From positions 1-37,806 of the forward strand of contig CACHRR010000008.1 in NCBI GenBank assembly GCA_902582355.1: DNA of 37,806 nucleotides. The letters run 5' to 3'. Position 1 is the first letter of the stretch, and each line of letters starts with the position of its first letter. A program made the position numbers and the translations under genes. The notes below the pieces were generated by a model, which was given only the letters and a program-made list of their open reading frames with translations, was not told the DNA's origin and searched no databases. The stretch is from an uncultured SAR86 cluster bacterium. Its GTDB lineage: Bacteria > Pseudomonadota > Gammaproteobacteria > Magnimaribacterales > D2472. Positions 9,553 through 26,090 of the stretch are shown piece after piece.

Positions 9553-10971
9553 ATGAATAATGATTTAAATTTTTATATCAATGGCGAGTGGGTAAAATCT
9601 GAATCAAATGAATTAATTGATGTAATTAATCCTGCAAATGAAGAGGTGCTTGGTCGCATAACAGCAGGCACAAAAGAAGATATTAATAACGCGGTTAAAT
9701 CAGCATTGAGTGCATTTTCTTCTTTTCAGTACACCTCAAAAGTTGAAAGAATTGAATTACTGAATAATATCATTACCGAGTATGAAAATAGATATGATGA
9801 TTTTGTTAAAATCATTACTAAAGAGATGGGTGCTCCGATATGGTTATCTGAAAAAGCACAAGCTTCAACAGGAATTAAAAATATTCATGAAACTTTGGAT
9901 GCATTAAAAGACTATCAATTTGAAAGACCAGAGGGTGACTATACTTTGATAAAGGAACCAATTGGAGTCATAGGTATGATTACGCCATGGAATTGGCCAA
10001 TGAATCAAATCACAACAAAAGTTTCTGCAGCATTAGCCGCTGGATGCACTATGGTTCTTAAACCCAGTGAAATATCACCATTTTGTGCGATGCTTTTAGC
10101 GGAAGTATTTGATAAAGCTGGTGTTCCAAAAGGAGTATTCAATGTTGTTAATGGTTATGGTCCAATTGTTGGAGCTGCATTATCTGAGCATCCAGATGTT
10201 GCAATGATGTCTTTCACTGGCTCGACAAGAGCAGGCATAGCTGTTGCTCAAGCATCGGCGGTATCTGTTAAGCGTGTTCATCAGGAGTTGGGTGGAAAAT
10301 CTTCAAATATTATTCTTGATGATGTCGCTGATTTGGAGAGATCAGTTAAGGGTGGAGCTGGTCATTGCTTTTTAAATTCAGGACAATCCTGTAATGCGCC
10401 AACTAAAATGTTAGTATCAGCTAAAAATTATGACAAAGCTGTTGAGGTTGCTGTTAATACTGCAAATAATACTTCCGTTGGAGATCCAATGGGCGAATTT
10501 AGAATAGGGCCAATTGCTAATAAAGCACAGTACGAAAAAATTTTAAAAATGATAGAGATTGGTATTGAAGAGGGCGCTTCTTTGGTAGCTGGCGGTATTG
10601 AAAAGCCCGAAGGATGTGACAAAGGTTACTATATAAAGCCAACTGTATTTGCGAATGTAACAAATGATATGACAATTGCTAAGGAAGAAATATTTGGACC
10701 AGTATTGTCAATCATTAAGTATGAAAACGAAGATGAAGCAATTAAGATTGCTAACGACACCGAATATGGTCTTGCAGGTTATGTTCAGGGTGAGCCAGAA
10801 CATGCAAAAGAAGTTGCACGTAAAATAAGAGCTGGACAAGTAATCATTAATGGTGGTGCAAGAGGAACAGGAGCACCATTTGGTGGTTACAAATCTTCAG
10901 GTAACGGAAGAGAGCATGGTCTCCATGGATTAGAAGAATGTCTTGAGACTAAAGCAGTTATAGCTCCGTAG
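9553..10971 (+). CDS. NAD(P)-dependent aldehyde dehydrogenase family protein
   Basis: This 472-residue member of the ALDH superfamily oxidises an aldehyde to the acid with NAD(P). The Rossmann/cofactor region holds TPWNWPMNQITTKVSAALAAG and KPSEISPFCA, with GFxGST-type SFTGSTRAG. The general base Glu245 is in HQELGGKSS and the nucleophile Cys280 in NSGQSCNAP, so it looks active. EEIFGPVLSIIKY and the C-terminal GGYKSSGNGREHG are standard. Substrate is unknown. AGGAGA precedes the ATG. The stop is 1 bp from the stop of the convergent aldolase-like gene. Confidence 0.92.
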   Translation: MNNDLNFYINGEWVKSESNELIDVINPANEEVLGRITAGTKEDINNAVKSALSAFSSFQYTSKVERIELLNNIITEYENRYDDFVKIITKEMGAPIWLSEKAQASTGIKNIHETLDALKDYQFERPEGDYTLIKEPIGVIGMITPWNWPMNQITTKVSAALAAGCTMVLKPSEISPFCAMLLAEVFDKAGVPKGVFNVVNGYGPIVGAALSEHPDVAMMSFTGSTRAGIAVAQASAVSVKRVHQELGGKSSNIILDDVADLERSVKGGAGHCFLNSGQSCNAPTKMLVSAKNYDKAVEVAVNTANNTSVGDPMGEFRIGPIANKAQYEKILKMIEIGIEEGASLVAGGIEKPEGCDKGYYIKPTVFANVTNDMTIAKEEIFGPVLSIIKYENEDEAIKIANDTEYGLAGYVQGEPEHAKEVARKIRAGQVIINGGARGTGAPFGGYKSSGNGREHGLHGLEECLETKAVIAP

Positions 10972-19741: not shown

Positions 19742-21307
19742 ATGAATAAGCTTTCTATTAGCAATAAAAGTATAGATACAATTTTAGTTCTTGATTTTGG
19801 ATCTCAATATACTCAGTTAATCGCAAGAAGAGTTAGAGAAAGTAAAGTTTACTCTGAAATACTGCCATGGGATATAGCTGAAGATAAAATTCGCAATCTA
19901 AATCCAAAAGGAATAATTCTATCAGGTGGACCAAACTCTGTTACAGAAAGTTTTACGCCAAGGGCTCCCCAGTGTGTTTTCGATTTAAAAGTGCCTATTC
20001 TAGGAATTTGTTATGGAATGCAAACAATTGCTGAACAAATGGGTGGACAAGTTATGTCTGTTGATCAAAAAGAATTTGGACACTCTGAATTAAAAATTAT
20101 TAATGAATCTATTTTATTTAAAAATCTTGATAAGAAAATCAATGTTTGGATGAGTCACGGTGACCAAGTTCAAGATTTACCTGATAATTATAATTTAATT
20201 GCTTCAACTAAAACTGCTCCAATTGCAGCTATGGAACACAAAAATTTACCAATATATGCAATTCAATTTCATCCTGAGGTGACACATACAGAAAATGGAC
20301 AGAATATATTAAATAATTTTATTTTTGATATCTGCCAGTCAAAAAATGAATGGAGAATTGAAAATCTCATTTCACAAAGAATAGAAGAAATTAAAGAAAA
20401 AGTAAAAAAAGATAAAGTTTTGTTAGGCTTATCAGGAGGAGTAGATTCCTCAGTTACTGCTGCTCTTCTTCACAAAGCAATTGGTAAAAAACTTACATGT
20501 GTTTTTGTAGATAATGGATTGCTTAGAAAAAATGAGTCAGTGGAGGTAATGCAAACTTTTAAAGATAACTTAGATTTGAACGTTATTAAGTCTGATAGTT
20601 CAGATATTTTCCTAAGACATCTTGAAAATGTTGACGATCCTGAACAAAAAAGAAAGATTATTGGAAGAACTTTTATTGATATCTTCGATGCAGAAGCAAT
20701 TAAGTTAAAGGATATTAAGTTTTTGGCGCAAGGAACTATCTATCCCGATGTTATTGAATCATCTGGATCAGAATCAAAGGAAGCAAGAGTAATAAAATCT
20801 CACCATAATGTTGGTGGATTGCCAGAAGAAATGAAACTTGATTTAGTAGAGCCATTGAGAGATCTTTTTAAAGACGAAGTCAGAAAAATGGGCATACAGC
20901 TCGGAATACCCAAAGAAATGATTGAAAGACATCCTTTTCCTGGACCAGGTTTAGGAGTAAGAATTATTGGTGAAATAACTAAAGAAAAGATAAAGATACT
21001 GCAAGACGCTGATGCAATATTTATTGAAGAATTAGTGAAAGCTAATTTATATAACAAAGTTAGCCAGGCATTTGCGGTTTTATTGTCTGTAAAGTCAGTT
21101 GGTGTTGTTGGAGATGAACGAAGGTATGCCGAAGTTATTGGATTAAGGGCAGTTGAGACTGTAGATTTTATGACAGCCAGATGGGCGCATTTACCTTTTA
21201 AATTTTTAGAAAATGTTTCAAATAGGATTGTAAATGAAATAGAAGATGTCAGTAGAGTAGTTTATGACATATCAAGCAAACCTCCTGCAACTATCGAGTG
21301 GGAATGA
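19742..21307 (+). CDS. guaA: GMP synthase (glutamine-hydrolysing)
   Basis: This 521-residue enzyme converts XMP to GMP with ATP and glutamine. The N-terminal class I amidotransferase has Cys90 in [15 protein letters not shown], and His177 and Glu179 in FHPEVTH, a complete triad. The ATP-pyrophosphatase P-loop [11 protein letters not shown] begins near 230. The dimerisation domain ends with the conserved PPATIEWE. The last codons (ATCGAGTGGGAATGA) are repeated at 22733-22747, as expected for an integration site at the gene end. It forms an operon with guaB. A hairpin lies just past the stop. Confidence 0.97.
21296..21305 (+). other. Putative attL core within the guaA stop region
   Basis: GAGTGGGAAT encodes the end of IEWE plus the first bases of the stop and matches 22736-22745 exactly. 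The guaA frame and stop are intact, as expected when the target gene end is restored by the element. Confidence 0.5.
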
Positions 21308-21316
21308 AGGGTGACT

Positions 21317-21347
21317 CTGAAACCCATATAAAATAGGGGTTCTTCAG
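21317..21347 (+). terminator. Hairpin just after guaA
   Basis: CTGAA-ACCC and GGGGT-TC-TTCAG can pair around an A/T loop (ATATAAAATA). It lies 10 bp past the guaA stop, so it could act as a terminator, but there is no T tract after it. A similar hairpin is found at the other end of the islet, which suggests it belongs to the element. Confidence 0.45.
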
Positions 21348-21431
21348 ATACAAACTTAATACAAACTTATGACAATACCCTTATTCTTATTTGATTAGTG
21401 TTCTGTAGATACAAACTTTAGTGCAAAGTTT
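21347..21431 (+). repeat. Left cluster of GATACAAACTT motifs
   Basis: GATACAAACTT occurs at 21347-21357, a partial copy ATACAAACTT at 21359-21368, and GATACAAACTTT at 21408-21419. The last forms an inverted repeat AAACTTT-AGTGC-AAAGTTT (21413-21431). The same motif occurs at the right side of the islet. Repeated short sites near both ends resemble recombinase arm-type sites or a regulator's operators. Confidence 0.6.
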
Positions 21432-21479
21432 GGTCACTTACTGCAAAACATAAGCACAAGTTAATCGAACTCATCTCAA

Positions 21480-21568
21480 AACCATTTTCTGATGTTCTAA
21501 AAACTGACACAGGGAGACACAAATTTTTGTTTAAGGCTTAACTACTTTCTCCCTAAAAACTGTATAAT
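21480..21568 (+). repeat. Left copy of the ~90 bp direct repeat (carries the promoter of the islet gene)
   Basis: It matches 22499-22588 with about 14 differences in 90 columns by eye. The first 40 bp are the same apart from one indel. It contains CTGACACAG, whose pairing partner is degraded here (TTGTTTAAG in place of CTGTGTCAG). It ends with TATAAT at 21563-21568, 28 bp before the ATG of the islet gene, so the repeat probably supplies that gene's promoter. Confidence 0.75.
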
Positions 21569-21596
21569 AATTTTTTTACATATACTATTAAATTCA

Positions 21597-22490
21597 ATGG
21601 GCATAATACATAACAACGCAATCGCTTTATTAAAAGCCAAAAAGAAGGGCACATCTTTTAAAAAAGTATTGTTAATTGGTAGACAACAGTTATTCATAAG
21701 TTCAAAAAAAATGAAATTATTATCAGAACAGTTCTCAATTAACACATCTAACTTTTCATATGAATATGGAGGATATTCAGAAGAGTTTTTTAAATATTTC
21801 CTTGATGCAGAAATAGTTGACTCTTTAGATTATGATGATTTTGAGGGTTCGAATATAATACATGATCTTAATTTTCCAATTTCAACAGAGTATTATGAAA
21901 GTTATGATGTTGTTATCGATGGTGGAACTTTAGAGCATGTGTTTAATTTTCCGATTGCTATCGGGAATTGCATGAATTTTGTCAAAAAAAATGGAAGTTT
22001 ATTTGTTTTCAATATGGCTAATAACCATATGGGTCATGGTTTCTATCAATTTAGCCCAGAACTTTTCTTTAGATTATTTGAAAGTAATGGCTTCATAACA
22101 AAAGATATTATTCTGGATGTTCATAACTATTCAGGAGCAGAGCTTGGGCCGACAGGAAAATGCTACTCAGTAACTGATCCAAAAGAATATGGCGGTAGAA
22201 TTTCCCTGGTTTCAAAAAAACCAGTTATGATTATGGCGCATGGAGTTAGAAAAGAAATTATTGAAATTCTATCATCTTATCCAATTCAGTCGGATTATGA
22301 AGCTGATACCGGAAGCACGTTTTTAGATAGATCAAGAGTTTTAGAGAATAATAATAATTTTAATATAAAAGATTTTGCAAAAAACCTCATTGATTTGCTT
22401 CCAAGAAACCTTAAAGAACATATTTATGGCCTATATCAACTTAAAAATAATTCAATTAAAAATAAAAAATTTTTTACAAAATGGAAATAA
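21597..22490 (+). CDS. SAM-dependent methyltransferase-like protein, sole gene of the islet
   Basis: This 297-residue protein resembles class I methyltransferases. KVLLIGRQQLF (24-34) is in the place of the SAM-binding first strand but lacks the usual GxGxG. YDVVIDGGTLEHVFNFPIAIGNCMNFVKKNGSLFVFNMANN (about 103-143) matches the motif II/III and post-motif strand pattern, with LEHV typical. Then FSPELFFRLFESNGF is seen, as in many small-molecule or glycan methyltransferases. The C-terminal ~90 residues are basic and not recognised. The missing glycine loop raises doubt about activity. It is flanked by ~90 bp direct repeats inside the guaA islet. The sulfotransferases just beyond guaC hint at surface-glycan decoration, but the substrate is unknown. 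Confidence 0.65.
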   Translation: MGIIHNNAIALLKAKKKGTSFKKVLLIGRQQLFISSKKMKLLSEQFSINTSNFSYEYGGYSEEFFKYFLDAEIVDSLDYDDFEGSNIIHDLNFPISTEYYESYDVVIDGGTLEHVFNFPIAIGNCMNFVKKNGSLFVFNMANNHMGHGFYQFSPELFFRLFESNGFITKDIILDVHNYSGAELGPTGKCYSVTDPKEYGGRISLVSKKPVMIMAHGVRKEIIEILSSYPIQSDYEADTGSTFLDRSRVLENNNNFNIKDFAKNLIDLLPRNLKEHIYGLYQLKNNSIKNKKFFTKWK

Positions 22491-22498
22491 ATATTTCT

Positions 22499-22588
22499 AA
22501 CCATTTTCTGATGTTCTAAAAGACTGACACAGGGAGACGCAACTTTCTGTGTCAGACCCAACTATTCATTCCCTAAAAAATGTATAAT
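22499..22588 (+). repeat. Right copy of the ~90 bp direct repeat with an intact hairpin
   Basis: It is the second copy of 21480-21568. Here CTGACACAG (22524-22532) and CTGTGTCAG (22547-22555) form a perfect 9-bp stem with a 14-base loop. It ends in TATAAT (22583-22588) like the left copy, but no gene follows before guaC. The unit may be a repeated promoter-plus-structure module that preceded a second cargo gene now lost. Confidence 0.75.
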
Positions 22589-22593
22589 CCTTT

Positions 22594-22690
22594 GATACAA
22601 ACTTTGTATGAAACACCTAGTTGATAGGCATACTCTTACAAAAATGGGTGCAAAATGAGAAATCTCTTATACAAAGTTGATACAAACTTT
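22594..22690 (+). repeat. Right cluster of GATACAAACTT motifs
   Basis: GATACAAACTTT occurs at 22594-22605 and 22679-22690, in the same orientation as on the left side. The first is embedded in a perfect palindrome ATACAAA-C-TTTGTAT (22595-22609). A reverse-oriented partial copy (ACAAAGTTG) lies beside the second. Confidence 0.6.
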
Positions 22691-22693
22691 TTT

Positions 22694-22718
22694 GAAACCC
22701 CTTTAAATAAAGGGTTCC
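22694..22718. other. Hairpin at the right end of the islet
   Basis: GAAACCCCTTT and AAAGGGTTCC pair around AAAT, with a one-base bulge. It mirrors the hairpin just after guaA and lies 17 bp inside the right GAGTGGGAAT copy. There is no T tract on either exit side, so a role as terminator is unlikely. Confidence 0.5.
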
Positions 22719-22735
22719 AGAGGTTATTACTCATT

Positions 22736-22745
22736 GAGTGGGAAT
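22736..22745 (+). other. Putative attR core (copy of the guaA end)
   Basis: GAGTGGGAAT, preceded by CATT and followed by AA, would read IEWE-stop like the end of guaA, but no open frame leads into it. From here to the guaC start (22831) I see only A/T-rich DNA with a TATAAA at about 22799-22804. Confidence 0.5.
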
Positions 22746-22830
22746 AATCAAAAGCTATAAAAAAATTTATAAAACAATTTTAATGATTGATCTAATGATA
22801 TAAAGTATTAAATTATAGGAAATTTTTCTT

Positions 22831-23823
22831 TTGTTAATTAATGAAGACATAAAATTAGATTATTCTGATGTTTTGATAAGGCCTAAAAGGTCGACAATGA
22901 GTTCAAGAAGCGAAGTTAATCTAAAGCGCACTCACAGATTTCTTTGGAGCAAAAGAAAGTGGACCGGCGTCCCCATAATGTCAGCTAATATGGATACAGT
23001 TGGCACTCCAGCAATGCATAAAATACTATCTAAAAATAATCTTATCACTTGTCCTGCGAGGCATTATCTTAAAAAAAACTCAAATAAATTTAAAAAAGGA
23101 GAAGCTAACATTTGTTGGTTCGGAGGGATAGATGATATTTCAAAATTATCAAAAATGTCATCTGGTTTTATTGGACTTGATGTTGCAAATGGTTACACAA
23201 TTAAATTTGTTGATGCAGTTAAGAATTTAAGAGATAAATGTCCTAATGCGACAATTGCAGCTGGAAATGTTGTTACTGCAGATATGACACAAGAGCTAAT
23301 TCTAGCAGGCGCTGACATAGTAAAAGTTGGCATTGGTCCTGGCTCAGTTTGTACAACAAGAATAAAAACTGGAATTGGTTATCCTCAACTAAGTGCTGTT
23401 ATTGAGTGTGCAGACGCAGCACATGGTTTGGACGGTCATATTATTGCAGATGGTGGTTGCACGAGTTCAGGAGATATTGTGAAAGCATTTGCGGGTGGAG
23501 CAGACTTTGTAATGATCGGTGGAATGTTAGCTGGACATGACGAATGCGAAGGTCAATTGGAGGATGGAGTAATGAAATTTTATGGAATGGCTTCAAAATC
23601 AGCTATGAGCAAACACGGAAATCATAATGATTACAGGGGGACAGAAGGTAAAACAGTTGAGGTAAATTATCGTGGAAAAGCAGATGAAACTGTTAAGGAT
23701 ATTTTGAGTGGTATTCGATCAGCATGTACATATGTCGGCGCTAATAAATTAAAAACACTCTCTAAATGTACAACATTCGTAAGAGTAAATAATACTCACA
23801 ACACTATATTTGGAAATGAATAA
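22831..23823 (+). CDS. guaC: GMP reductase
   Basis: This enzyme reductively deaminates GMP to IMP with NADPH, closing the purine interconversion loop with GuaB and GuaA. At 330 residues it resembles the IMPDH/GMPR barrel without CBS domains. [15 protein letters not shown] opens the barrel, the catalytic loop [12 protein letters not shown] carries Cys174, and [29 protein letters not shown] binds phosphate. YRGTEGK marks a GMP reductase flap and not the IMPDH flap. The start is a TTG at 22831: its sequence lines up with the N-terminus of known GuaC, AGGAAA lies 7 bp upstream, and no in-frame ATG is close. It is separated from guaA by the islet. Confidence 0.95.
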
Positions 23824-24488: not shown

Positions 24489-25217
24489 ATGATTGTTTTA
24501 CACAAACAAAAAATAATTGCACTCAAGGCAAGGAAAGTGGGTGGAACTTCATTTGAGATAGCTCTTTCGAAGTTTGCGAATAAGGATTCAATAATTACTC
24601 CTATTACACTTGATGATGAAAAACTAAGAGAAAGTCTTGGCTATCTAGGACCACAAAACTATAAATATAAAACTGAAGAAATAAAAAAACTTTCACTTAA
24701 AAAAAGAATTGGTATGAGCTTAAATGAAAAAAAAAGATTAAAGTTTTACAACCATATACCTGCATATCTTGTAAAACAAAGATTAGGAGATAATATTTGG
24801 AATACTTATACAAAGATTGCAATTATAAGAAATCCCTTTGATTACATGGTAAGTAGCTTTTTTTGGGAGATGAAAACAAAAAAGAAAAAAACTGATTTAA
24901 GTTTTGAAGAATATGTTCTTAAAAGAAAAGACAAAATTAAAGCAAATGAAAAAATATATAAAATAAACAATGAGAACATTATTGATTACAAGATTAGATA
25001 TGATAATTTGCAAACTGATATTTTAAATTTTGAAAGTAAATGTCCTACATTAAGTGGGCTTTCAGATACATTTGTTAGGATATCTGCCAAAGGACAATAC
25101 AGGCCAAAAAATGCAAGTACTGTGGAAATGTTTAAAAATGCACCATTTGCTAAAGAATTAATTCAAGAAATTTGTAAAGAAGATATAAAATTACATAATT
25201 TTAAAGTACCTGTTTAA
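24489..25217 (+). CDS. Sulfotransferase family protein
   Basis: This 242-residue protein has the two PAPS-binding elements of sulfotransferases. The 5'-phosphosulfate loop is KARKVGGTSFE (about 13-22), and the 3'-phosphate site is IIRNPFDYMVSSFFW with Arg114 and Ser122/123. It would transfer sulfate from PAPS to a hydroxyl or amine, possibly on a glycan. The middle is Lys-rich (KTKKKKTDLSFEEYV). No signal peptide is visible, so it is cytoplasmic. The acceptor is unknown. It is followed 66 bp later by a second, different sulfotransferase. Confidence 0.8.
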   Translation: MIVLHKQKIIALKARKVGGTSFEIALSKFANKDSIITPITLDDEKLRESLGYLGPQNYKYKTEEIKKLSLKKRIGMSLNEKKRLKFYNHIPAYLVKQRLGDNIWNTYTKIAIIRNPFDYMVSSFFWEMKTKKKKTDLSFEEYVLKRKDKIKANEKIYKINNENIIDYKIRYDNLQTDILNFESKCPTLSGLSDTFVRISAKGQYRPKNASTVEMFKNAPFAKELIQEICKEDIKLHNFKVPV

Positions 25218-25283
25218 ATATCTAATACAAATACGTTATATTCATATGCCATTTCTTGCTAAGATATAAACCATATTAATTTT

Positions 25284-26090
25284 ATGAATGCATATGTAGT
25301 AATTAGGGTTCCAAAATGTGGAAGTACATCTCTTGCAAGGATGATAACTAGTGCAATGCCAAATTCGAAAGTTTTTTATATTTCAAGTGCTGGAATCGAG
25401 TTAGCTAAAGAAGCAAATCAAAATATTTCATCACTTGAGAGGTTTAGAATTTTTAAAAACACAACGAGAAGCATATGGAAAAAACATAGATGCTTAACAT
25501 TCGATTCTGTCTGGATGAAAACTAACAAAAATATTAGAGATAACGATATTATTCATGGGCATTTAACAATAGATGCTATTAAGTTGAATGCAATTAATAA
25601 AAGACTTATAACAGTTATAAGGGATCCTTATGACAGGATGTTATCAGATTATAATTATTCAAGAACTTCATATAATAAAAAAAATTTTATTTCGAGAAAA
25701 TATAAAAATAAACTTTATGTAGCTGGAAATTATTCTCTTGAAGGTTACATTTCATACCTGAAAGAAAATCAACCACTAAACGGCAGGTATATTTCAAGAT
25801 TTGTTATTGGAAAGGATAAAATTAACAATCCTATTGAATTTCTCGAAAACAATTATTTTACTTATGGTATTTTGGAAAGAATGGATTTATTTATTGAGGA
25901 TTTTTATAAGAAAAGTAATGTAAGGTTACTTCAAGAAAAGGCAAATGTTACAAAATTAAGGAAGGTAGTTAAACTTTCAACTTCAGAAAGACATGCAATT
26001 GAAAAATTTTGTGAAGAAGATATTGATTTATATCAAAACATCAAAGAGAAAATTAAAAATAAAAATGAATCATCTTCAAGAAATTCTTAA
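25284..26090 (+). CDS. Sulfotransferase family protein (sulfotransferase-2-like)
   Basis: This 268-residue protein begins MNAYVVIRVPKCGSTSLARM, the 5'-phosphosulfate loop of glycan-type sulfotransferases (PKCGSTS at 10-16). The 3'-phosphate site is VIRDPYDRMLSDYNY with Arg113 and Ser121. NYFTYGILERMDLFIEDF is a common C-terminal block in this group, related to eukaryotic heparan/chondroitin sulfotransferases and bacterial capsule or Nod-type relatives. It lacks a signal anchor. The acceptor is unknown. The next gene starts inside its last 26 bp. Confidence 0.85.
   Translation: MNAYVVIRVPKCGSTSLARMITSAMPNSKVFYISSAGIELAKEANQNISSLERFRIFKNTTRSIWKKHRCLTFDSVWMKTNKNIRDNDIIHGHLTIDAIKLNAINKRLITVIRDPYDRMLSDYNYSRTSYNKKNFISRKYKNKLYVAGNYSLEGYISYLKENQPLNGRYISRFVIGKDKINNPIEFLENNYFTYGILERMDLFIEDFYKKSNVRLLQEKANVTKLRKVVKLSTSERHAIEKFCEEDIDLYQNIKEKIKNKNESSSRNS

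Follow-up and report, generated by a model that had tools for sequence, protein, structure and literature searches.

The window analyzed here, a 37,806-nt stretch of DNA from an uncultured SAR86-cluster bacterium (cluster membership was judged by the nearest guaA records), carries a short gene islet at the 3' end of guaA, the gene for GMP synthase. Judged from sequence, the islet is best explained as one of many non-autonomous integrative cassettes, which are probably stacked at guaA by integrases supplied in trans. In the mechanism proposed here, a tyrosine integrase encoded outside the cassette would recombine the GAGTGGGA core of a circular cassette with the guaA end. Insertion would restore the last guaA codons and the stop codon and leave a displaced copy of the core on the far side. 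Because this displaced core could again serve as a target, cassettes would come to lie in rows. Although SAR86 bacteria abound in the ocean, they are uncultured, and the ways in which cells with such streamlined genomes gain genes are still poorly understood. With a single dock, short cassettes, ends that cross genera and an empty/occupied pair of sites, one such route becomes traceable in existing single-cell genomes, and arrays without any integrase pose the question of what moves the cassettes.

Parts of the cassette in the window

The host target gene, guaA (19742-21307, plus strand; Pfam GATase 8e-49, GMP_synt_C 2e-42), is 77-86% identical in 26 other genomes of the same genus. Its 3' end, ATCGAGTGGGAATGA (21293-21307, plus strand), which includes the stop codon, recurs as a direct repeat at 22733-22747 on the same strand, where ATTGAGTGGGAATAA forms a displaced copy of the guaA end. 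The stretch common to both joints is GAGTGGGAATRA, at 21296-21307 and 22736-22747, a site on which known guaA-specific integrases act, that of GIsul2 among them. For ATTGAGTGGGARTRR, the right core is the only exact match in this genome, and guaA's own copy reads ATCGAG. The left core carries GAGTGGGA, the same core as that of GIsul2, which sits at 5'-GAGTGGGA-3' of the guaA 3' end and whose integrase also excises and inserts the integrase-free CR2-sul2 unit bounded by the same core (PMC9376610). By analogy with that system, the two cores of the window are read as attL and attR, and the islet (21293-22747) as a single inserted cassette of 1.44 kb.

The cassette begins with a left end (21308-21479, plus strand), which has an imperfect hairpin (CTCTGAAACCC..GGGGTTC) near the core, and closes with a right end (22589-22735, plus strand). 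Both ends contain direct repeats of the ATACAAACTT type; the left end has three of them, the right end two or three. On the left, GATACAAACTT and AATACAAACTT lie at 21347-21368 and a third copy, again GATACAAACTT, at 21408-21418; on the right, the same motif appears as ATACAAAGTT and GATACAAACTT at 22669-22689 (all on the plus strand). The right-end pair is kept in G067, a SAR86 genome of another genus, and shows single changes in G065, G090, and G057. These repeats are placed like the arm sites of lambda-type integrases, and the proposed mechanism assigns them that role: they would be the sites at which the trans-acting integrase binds both ends. A palindrome, ATACAAACTTTGTAT (22595-22609), stands in the right end shortly past the TATAAT and is kept in G065, G090, and G057. 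The right end also contains an ORF of 16 codons, MKHLVDRHTLTKMGAK (22608-22658), which has the same length in G067, G065, G090, and G057. It was not taken as coding, because its changes among genomes, compared by eye, alter residues; its constant length probably reflects arm-site spacing instead.

Between the ends lie two copies of a repeat, R1 (21480-21568) and R2 (22499-22588), and between these the cargo gene (21597-22490, plus strand), which starts 289 bp past the guaA end. Its 297-aa product is the only ORF of at least 80 aa in the islet and weakly resembles SAM-dependent methyltransferases (UbiG model, 3.6e-4; Methyltransf_12, 0.039; both matches fall below the cut-off). No other full-length relative was found in 34 genomes of the genus, and viral contigs and phages yielded no relatives. 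R1 is separated from the cargo gene by a stretch with a degenerate core (at 21589; 6 mismatches in 18), which was discarded as evidence, being picked post hoc and equaled by 78 of 5000 shuffles.

Downstream of the cassette, the GMP reductase gene (22831-23823, plus strand; NCBIfam GMP reductase, 2e-141) is an islet gene in G027 and G008 too, and the DNA of G027 is 88.8% identical to the window from 22759 on, 12 nt after the core. Farther on, at 24489-26090, two genes stand between an azoreductase-like gene and a CoA-binding gene, the first of them with a weak sulfotransferase match (phrog_3347, 0.0011). Relatives differ over the whole region between guaA and 26492.

Shared ends, arrays and the missing integrase

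The ends of this cassette recur in other genera. The right end has matches in 14 of 107 SAR86-family genomes, from three genera, and runs straight into the GAGTGGGA core in G065, G090, G057, and G050. The left end is 169/172 identical in G067 and partially matched in G066 and G080. In G067 the order is left end, one copy of R, a shortened right end with a degenerate core (ATTGAGTAGAAATAA), a beta-lactamase-like gene, a second right end (127 bp at 97% identity to that of the window) and a core, the whole being part of a 7.9-kb array. The guaA proteins of the two genera are about 70% identical. From this comparison it follows that the ends are shared across genera while the cargo differs, which bears out the original prediction in so far as it described the islet as a modular cassette.

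The G067 array is not at guaA itself; it lies at a displaced fragment of the guaA end reading ..IIYDASSKLMVTIEWE. A close relative, G065, has the same place without the array; its flanks match those of G067 at 98.7 and 98.9% identity, each over 3 kb, and a single CTATTGAGTGGGAATGA in G065 corresponds to the two cores that enclose 7.9 kb in G067. The pair, read from these alignments, shows exact core insertion between close relatives and so indicates that cassettes move, implying neither a particular enzyme nor arrival one by one; homologous recombination in the flanks could have brought in the G067 array as one piece. Displaced guaA 3'-end fragments away from guaA (..TIEWE stop, with 12-50 codons open) occur in G067:C1, G065:C2, G048:C5, and G060:C1 and C3, and these act, or could act, as second docks.

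Arrays at guaA are common across SAR86. Further cores lie downstream of guaA at 29 of 47 SAR86 loci versus 4 of 51 loci of other gammaproteobacteria, counts that include apparent chance matches inside genes (e.g., SAR86 L062 and control L167). An exact search for the core in 107 genomes gave more than 130 matches, whereas the reversed pattern gave 4. Between one core and the next lie 49 candidate cassettes, 118-3105 bp in length, in which 66 ORFs lie on the guaA strand and 8 on the opposite one. The cargo comprises 72 ORFs in 55 families, including an AT3 acyltransferase, FkbM-type methyltransferases, a short-chain dehydrogenase, and beta-lactamase-like and metallo-hydrolase proteins. Right ends, taken as the last 100 bp before the core, form six families with two or more members at an identity threshold of 0.66, where chance identity is at most 0.54. 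Of the 49 cassettes, 27 have a GGGTTTCAGA-like motif no more than 60 bp from the right core (about 1 in shuffles), and a TCTGAAACCC-like motif is present in 16 of the 49 left ends (again about 1 in shuffles).

Several single loci deserve mention. The first cassette after guaA in L059 (c0, genome G010) encodes an EcoRI-type methylase (Pfam 1e-136) beside an HNH-like protein, possibly a mobile restriction-modification pair. In L215 (G066), at about 10140-10180 of the guaA-oriented strand, a lookalike of the 3' part of a tRNA, GGTCGGAGGTTCGAGTCCCCCCGAGCCCA, directly precedes the end motif of a cassette right end. Outside SAR86, guaA islets without an evident integrase are seen in L126 (Halioglobus), L145 (Microbulbifer), and L151 (Pseudomonas); their right ends have CATGGTATT-like repeats in common. 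In both L126 and L145 the core is preceded by a CATTGAATATAAA stretch, and L126 has two islets in tandem.

No integrase was found in or near the examined arrays. The genome of the window has one PF00589 match, Xer-sized and on a contig other than the window's, and nearly all genomes of the same genus have one or two such genes, whose products of about 300 aa are presumed to be XerC and XerD. Where extra integrases occur (G015, G017, G034, G060, G066, G077, G082, G087, G088, G101, and G104), none is near a core or a matching end. In viral contigs, the guaA core is present at 13 loci. Several of these are prophages inserted at guaA in other hosts, the others are chance matches, and no locus is SAR86-like; three integrases from the guaA-site prophage contigs have no relative in SAR86 guaA loci, and no viral contig gave an exact match to any of three end motifs. 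The acting integrase was thus found neither in the SAR86 genomes examined nor in the core-bearing viral contigs. The SAR86 genomes are few and incomplete (that of the window is 80% complete), so the gene could be missing from the assemblies, and a helper integrase may reside in plasmids, phages or rare strains.

In most SAR86 genomes the only tyrosine recombinases seen are one or two that are presumed to be XerC and XerD, which would also suit a model in which the arrays are shuffled by host homologous recombination or by the Xer recombinases, with the guaA ends as relics of old phage insertions. Xer elements use dif rather than a gene end, and the action of an integrase fits the arm-like repeats in paired ends, the common ends around differing cargo and the insertion precisely at the core, so that host shuffling is an unlikely account of the arrays. 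On another reading, each cassette is the decayed remnant of a phage or island that has lost its integrase and is immobile today, as the small size, the lack of an integrase and some degenerate cores (such as ATTGAGTAGAAATAA in G067) might suggest. Against this, nearly identical complete ends surround different cargo in different genera, the right ends group into recurring families, and the G065/G067 polymorphism between close relatives points to recent movement of the integrase-free form; we regard immobile remnants as quite improbable. Cassettes mobilized by integrases supplied in trans would account for these features, and a bolder version of that explanation can be offered tentatively. SAR86 guaA might be an integron-like dock for at least six integrase-free families that have different arm repeats but one core and one orientation, some with their own promoter, and that pass from genus to genus by means of integrases present only transiently and encoded outside the genome of the cell.

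The internal repeat and its TATAAT

The original prediction placed two direct repeats of about 90 bp around the islet gene, each ending in TATAAT, and both are present as placed: R1 has 89 nt and ends in TATAAT at 21563-21568, and R2 has 90 nt and ends in TATAAT at 22583-22588. They lie in the same orientation (plus strand). Of 90 aligned columns, 14 are different, 13 by substitution and 1 by a gap; the left half accounts for 3 of these and the right half for 11. Their likeness exceeds chance, since in a BLAST search inside the genome (966 kb) the second copy is found at E 8.6e-22, while all else is no better than E 0.2. No further copies occur in 34 genomes of the genus, and among the 107 SAR86-family genomes there are three full-length copies: R1, R2, and one in G067, which is 91-92% identical to R2. 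The expectation of many copies, each before a different gene, is therefore not borne out for R, though it is for the cassette ends, given the spread of right-end matches described above. R2 contains a stem-loop, CTGACACAGGGAG-acgcaa-CTTTCTGTGTCAG (22524-22555, plus strand), with a 13-bp stem (-20.8 kcal/mol, z -3.3); both of its arms are kept in the G067 copy and lost from R1. A viral match to the stem (L265) was set aside as a chance match on a high-GC contig.

The repeat had also been proposed to mark the joints between cassettes. The joints found here are the guaA 3'-end cores, which lie outside the repeats. A related reading makes R itself the recombination site, with the stem-loop as a possible recombinase target and R plus the methyltransferase gene as a mobile unit entering a resident R. 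R1 and R2 do flank the gene closely, R2 beginning 8 nt past its stop codon, and the left half of R1 and the right half of R2 resemble the single G067 copy while the right half of R1 does not, a mosaic expected of such uptake. This contrast between the halves is weak (p 0.04) and fits plain decay of R1, and three full copies of R in 107 genomes stand against guaA-end cores that border 49 candidate cassettes. We consider it doubtful that R is the general joint; within the preferred explanation of cassettes joined at guaA cores, uptake at R is a possible origin of this one duplication.

In that explanation R would be an internal module of the window's cassette family, carrying the TATAAT. The junction of R with the left end is seen at R1 in the window and exactly so at the single copy in G067; that with the right end is seen at R2, and in G067 too, there in shortened form. 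On the simplest view, the ancestral cassette probably ran from core to left end, R, right end and core again, whereas that of the window has R1 after its left end, then the methyltransferase gene, then R2 before its right end. R could have doubled when an empty cassette and a gene cassette fused and the core between them was lost, for which G067 looks like a half-way stage; or a gene together with a copy of R could have been taken up at R.

The left copy had been proposed to supply the promoter of the islet gene. The repeat does stand in front of the cargo gene, and in G067 in front of a different, beta-lactamase-like one. R is plausible as a promoter on sequence grounds, R1 being the candidate promoter of the cargo gene; a consensus scan returned no -35 box for either TATAAT and no sigma-70 promoter. 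Under the proposed mechanism, R1 would drive the cargo gene and R2 would read out of the cassette toward the next gene. As to the claim that no gene follows the right copy, it holds for the first 240 bp or so, beyond which the GMP reductase gene begins. The suggestion that a second cargo gene was lost there is needless, because four other genomes (G065, G090, G057, and G091) have the same TATAAT, as GTATAAT, directly against the same right end and before its first arm repeat, where the sequence upstream is not R. For the same reason, R2 is better understood as belonging to the right end than as the promoter of a lost gene. Taken as a whole, the original interpretation is partly supported.

An outward TATAAT as a general feature was rejected, since over all cassette types it is found in 13 of 47, with 14 expected by chance; it is kept only in the window's cassette family. 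In left ends of other families, the pattern TTGANN-spacer-YATAMT is found in 6 of 47 versus 1.5 expected. The left ends of L042, L051, L056, L052, L059, and L060, which belong to two arm families, have one promoter-like stretch, TTGAAAGTCATAAGTTCATGGCATAAT, before the cargo, with small changes.

Relation to known elements

The closest known relatives are GIsul2 and the CR2-sul2 unit (PMC9376610). The SAR86 cassettes use the same attachment gene and core, the islet in the window lies at the guaA 3'-end GAGTGGGA with the core duplicated, and an integrase-free unit is known there as well. On the other hand, GIsul2 has a length of about 15 kb and an integrase gene of its own, whereas the SAR86 cassettes are 0.1-3.1 kb, none of those examined encodes one, and the window's contig has no PF00589 match. 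No earlier description of such SAR86 guaA cassettes was found among the open-licence full-text papers searched.

CIMEs (cis-mobilisable elements) are usually remnants beside a helper element. Like CIMEs and other products of tandem accretion, the SAR86 arrays consist of att-bounded segments in tandem stacks, and the islet in the window is itself bounded by att-like cores and has no recombination or transfer genes; they differ in that no helper was found in the SAR86 genomes and viral contigs examined, and in having several end families and highly varied cargo. Integron arrays and CALINs likewise hold short cassettes in rows, in nearly one orientation and at one site, and may lack the integrase. 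The SAR86 site, in contrast, is the end of a host gene flanked by arm-like repeats, and some cassettes have their own candidate promoter.

Tycheposons, too, are integrative, carry ecological cargo and occur in marine bacteria with streamlined genomes, but they are tRNA-bounded, span 4-200 kb and carry a tyrosine recombinase (PMC10872708). The only tRNA in the window is at 828-904, on a contig without an integrase, and the islet is thus no tycheposon. In the features compared here, the SAR86 cassettes can be classed as a variant of the guaA integrative elements that is integrase-free, very short, stacked, and divided among several end families.
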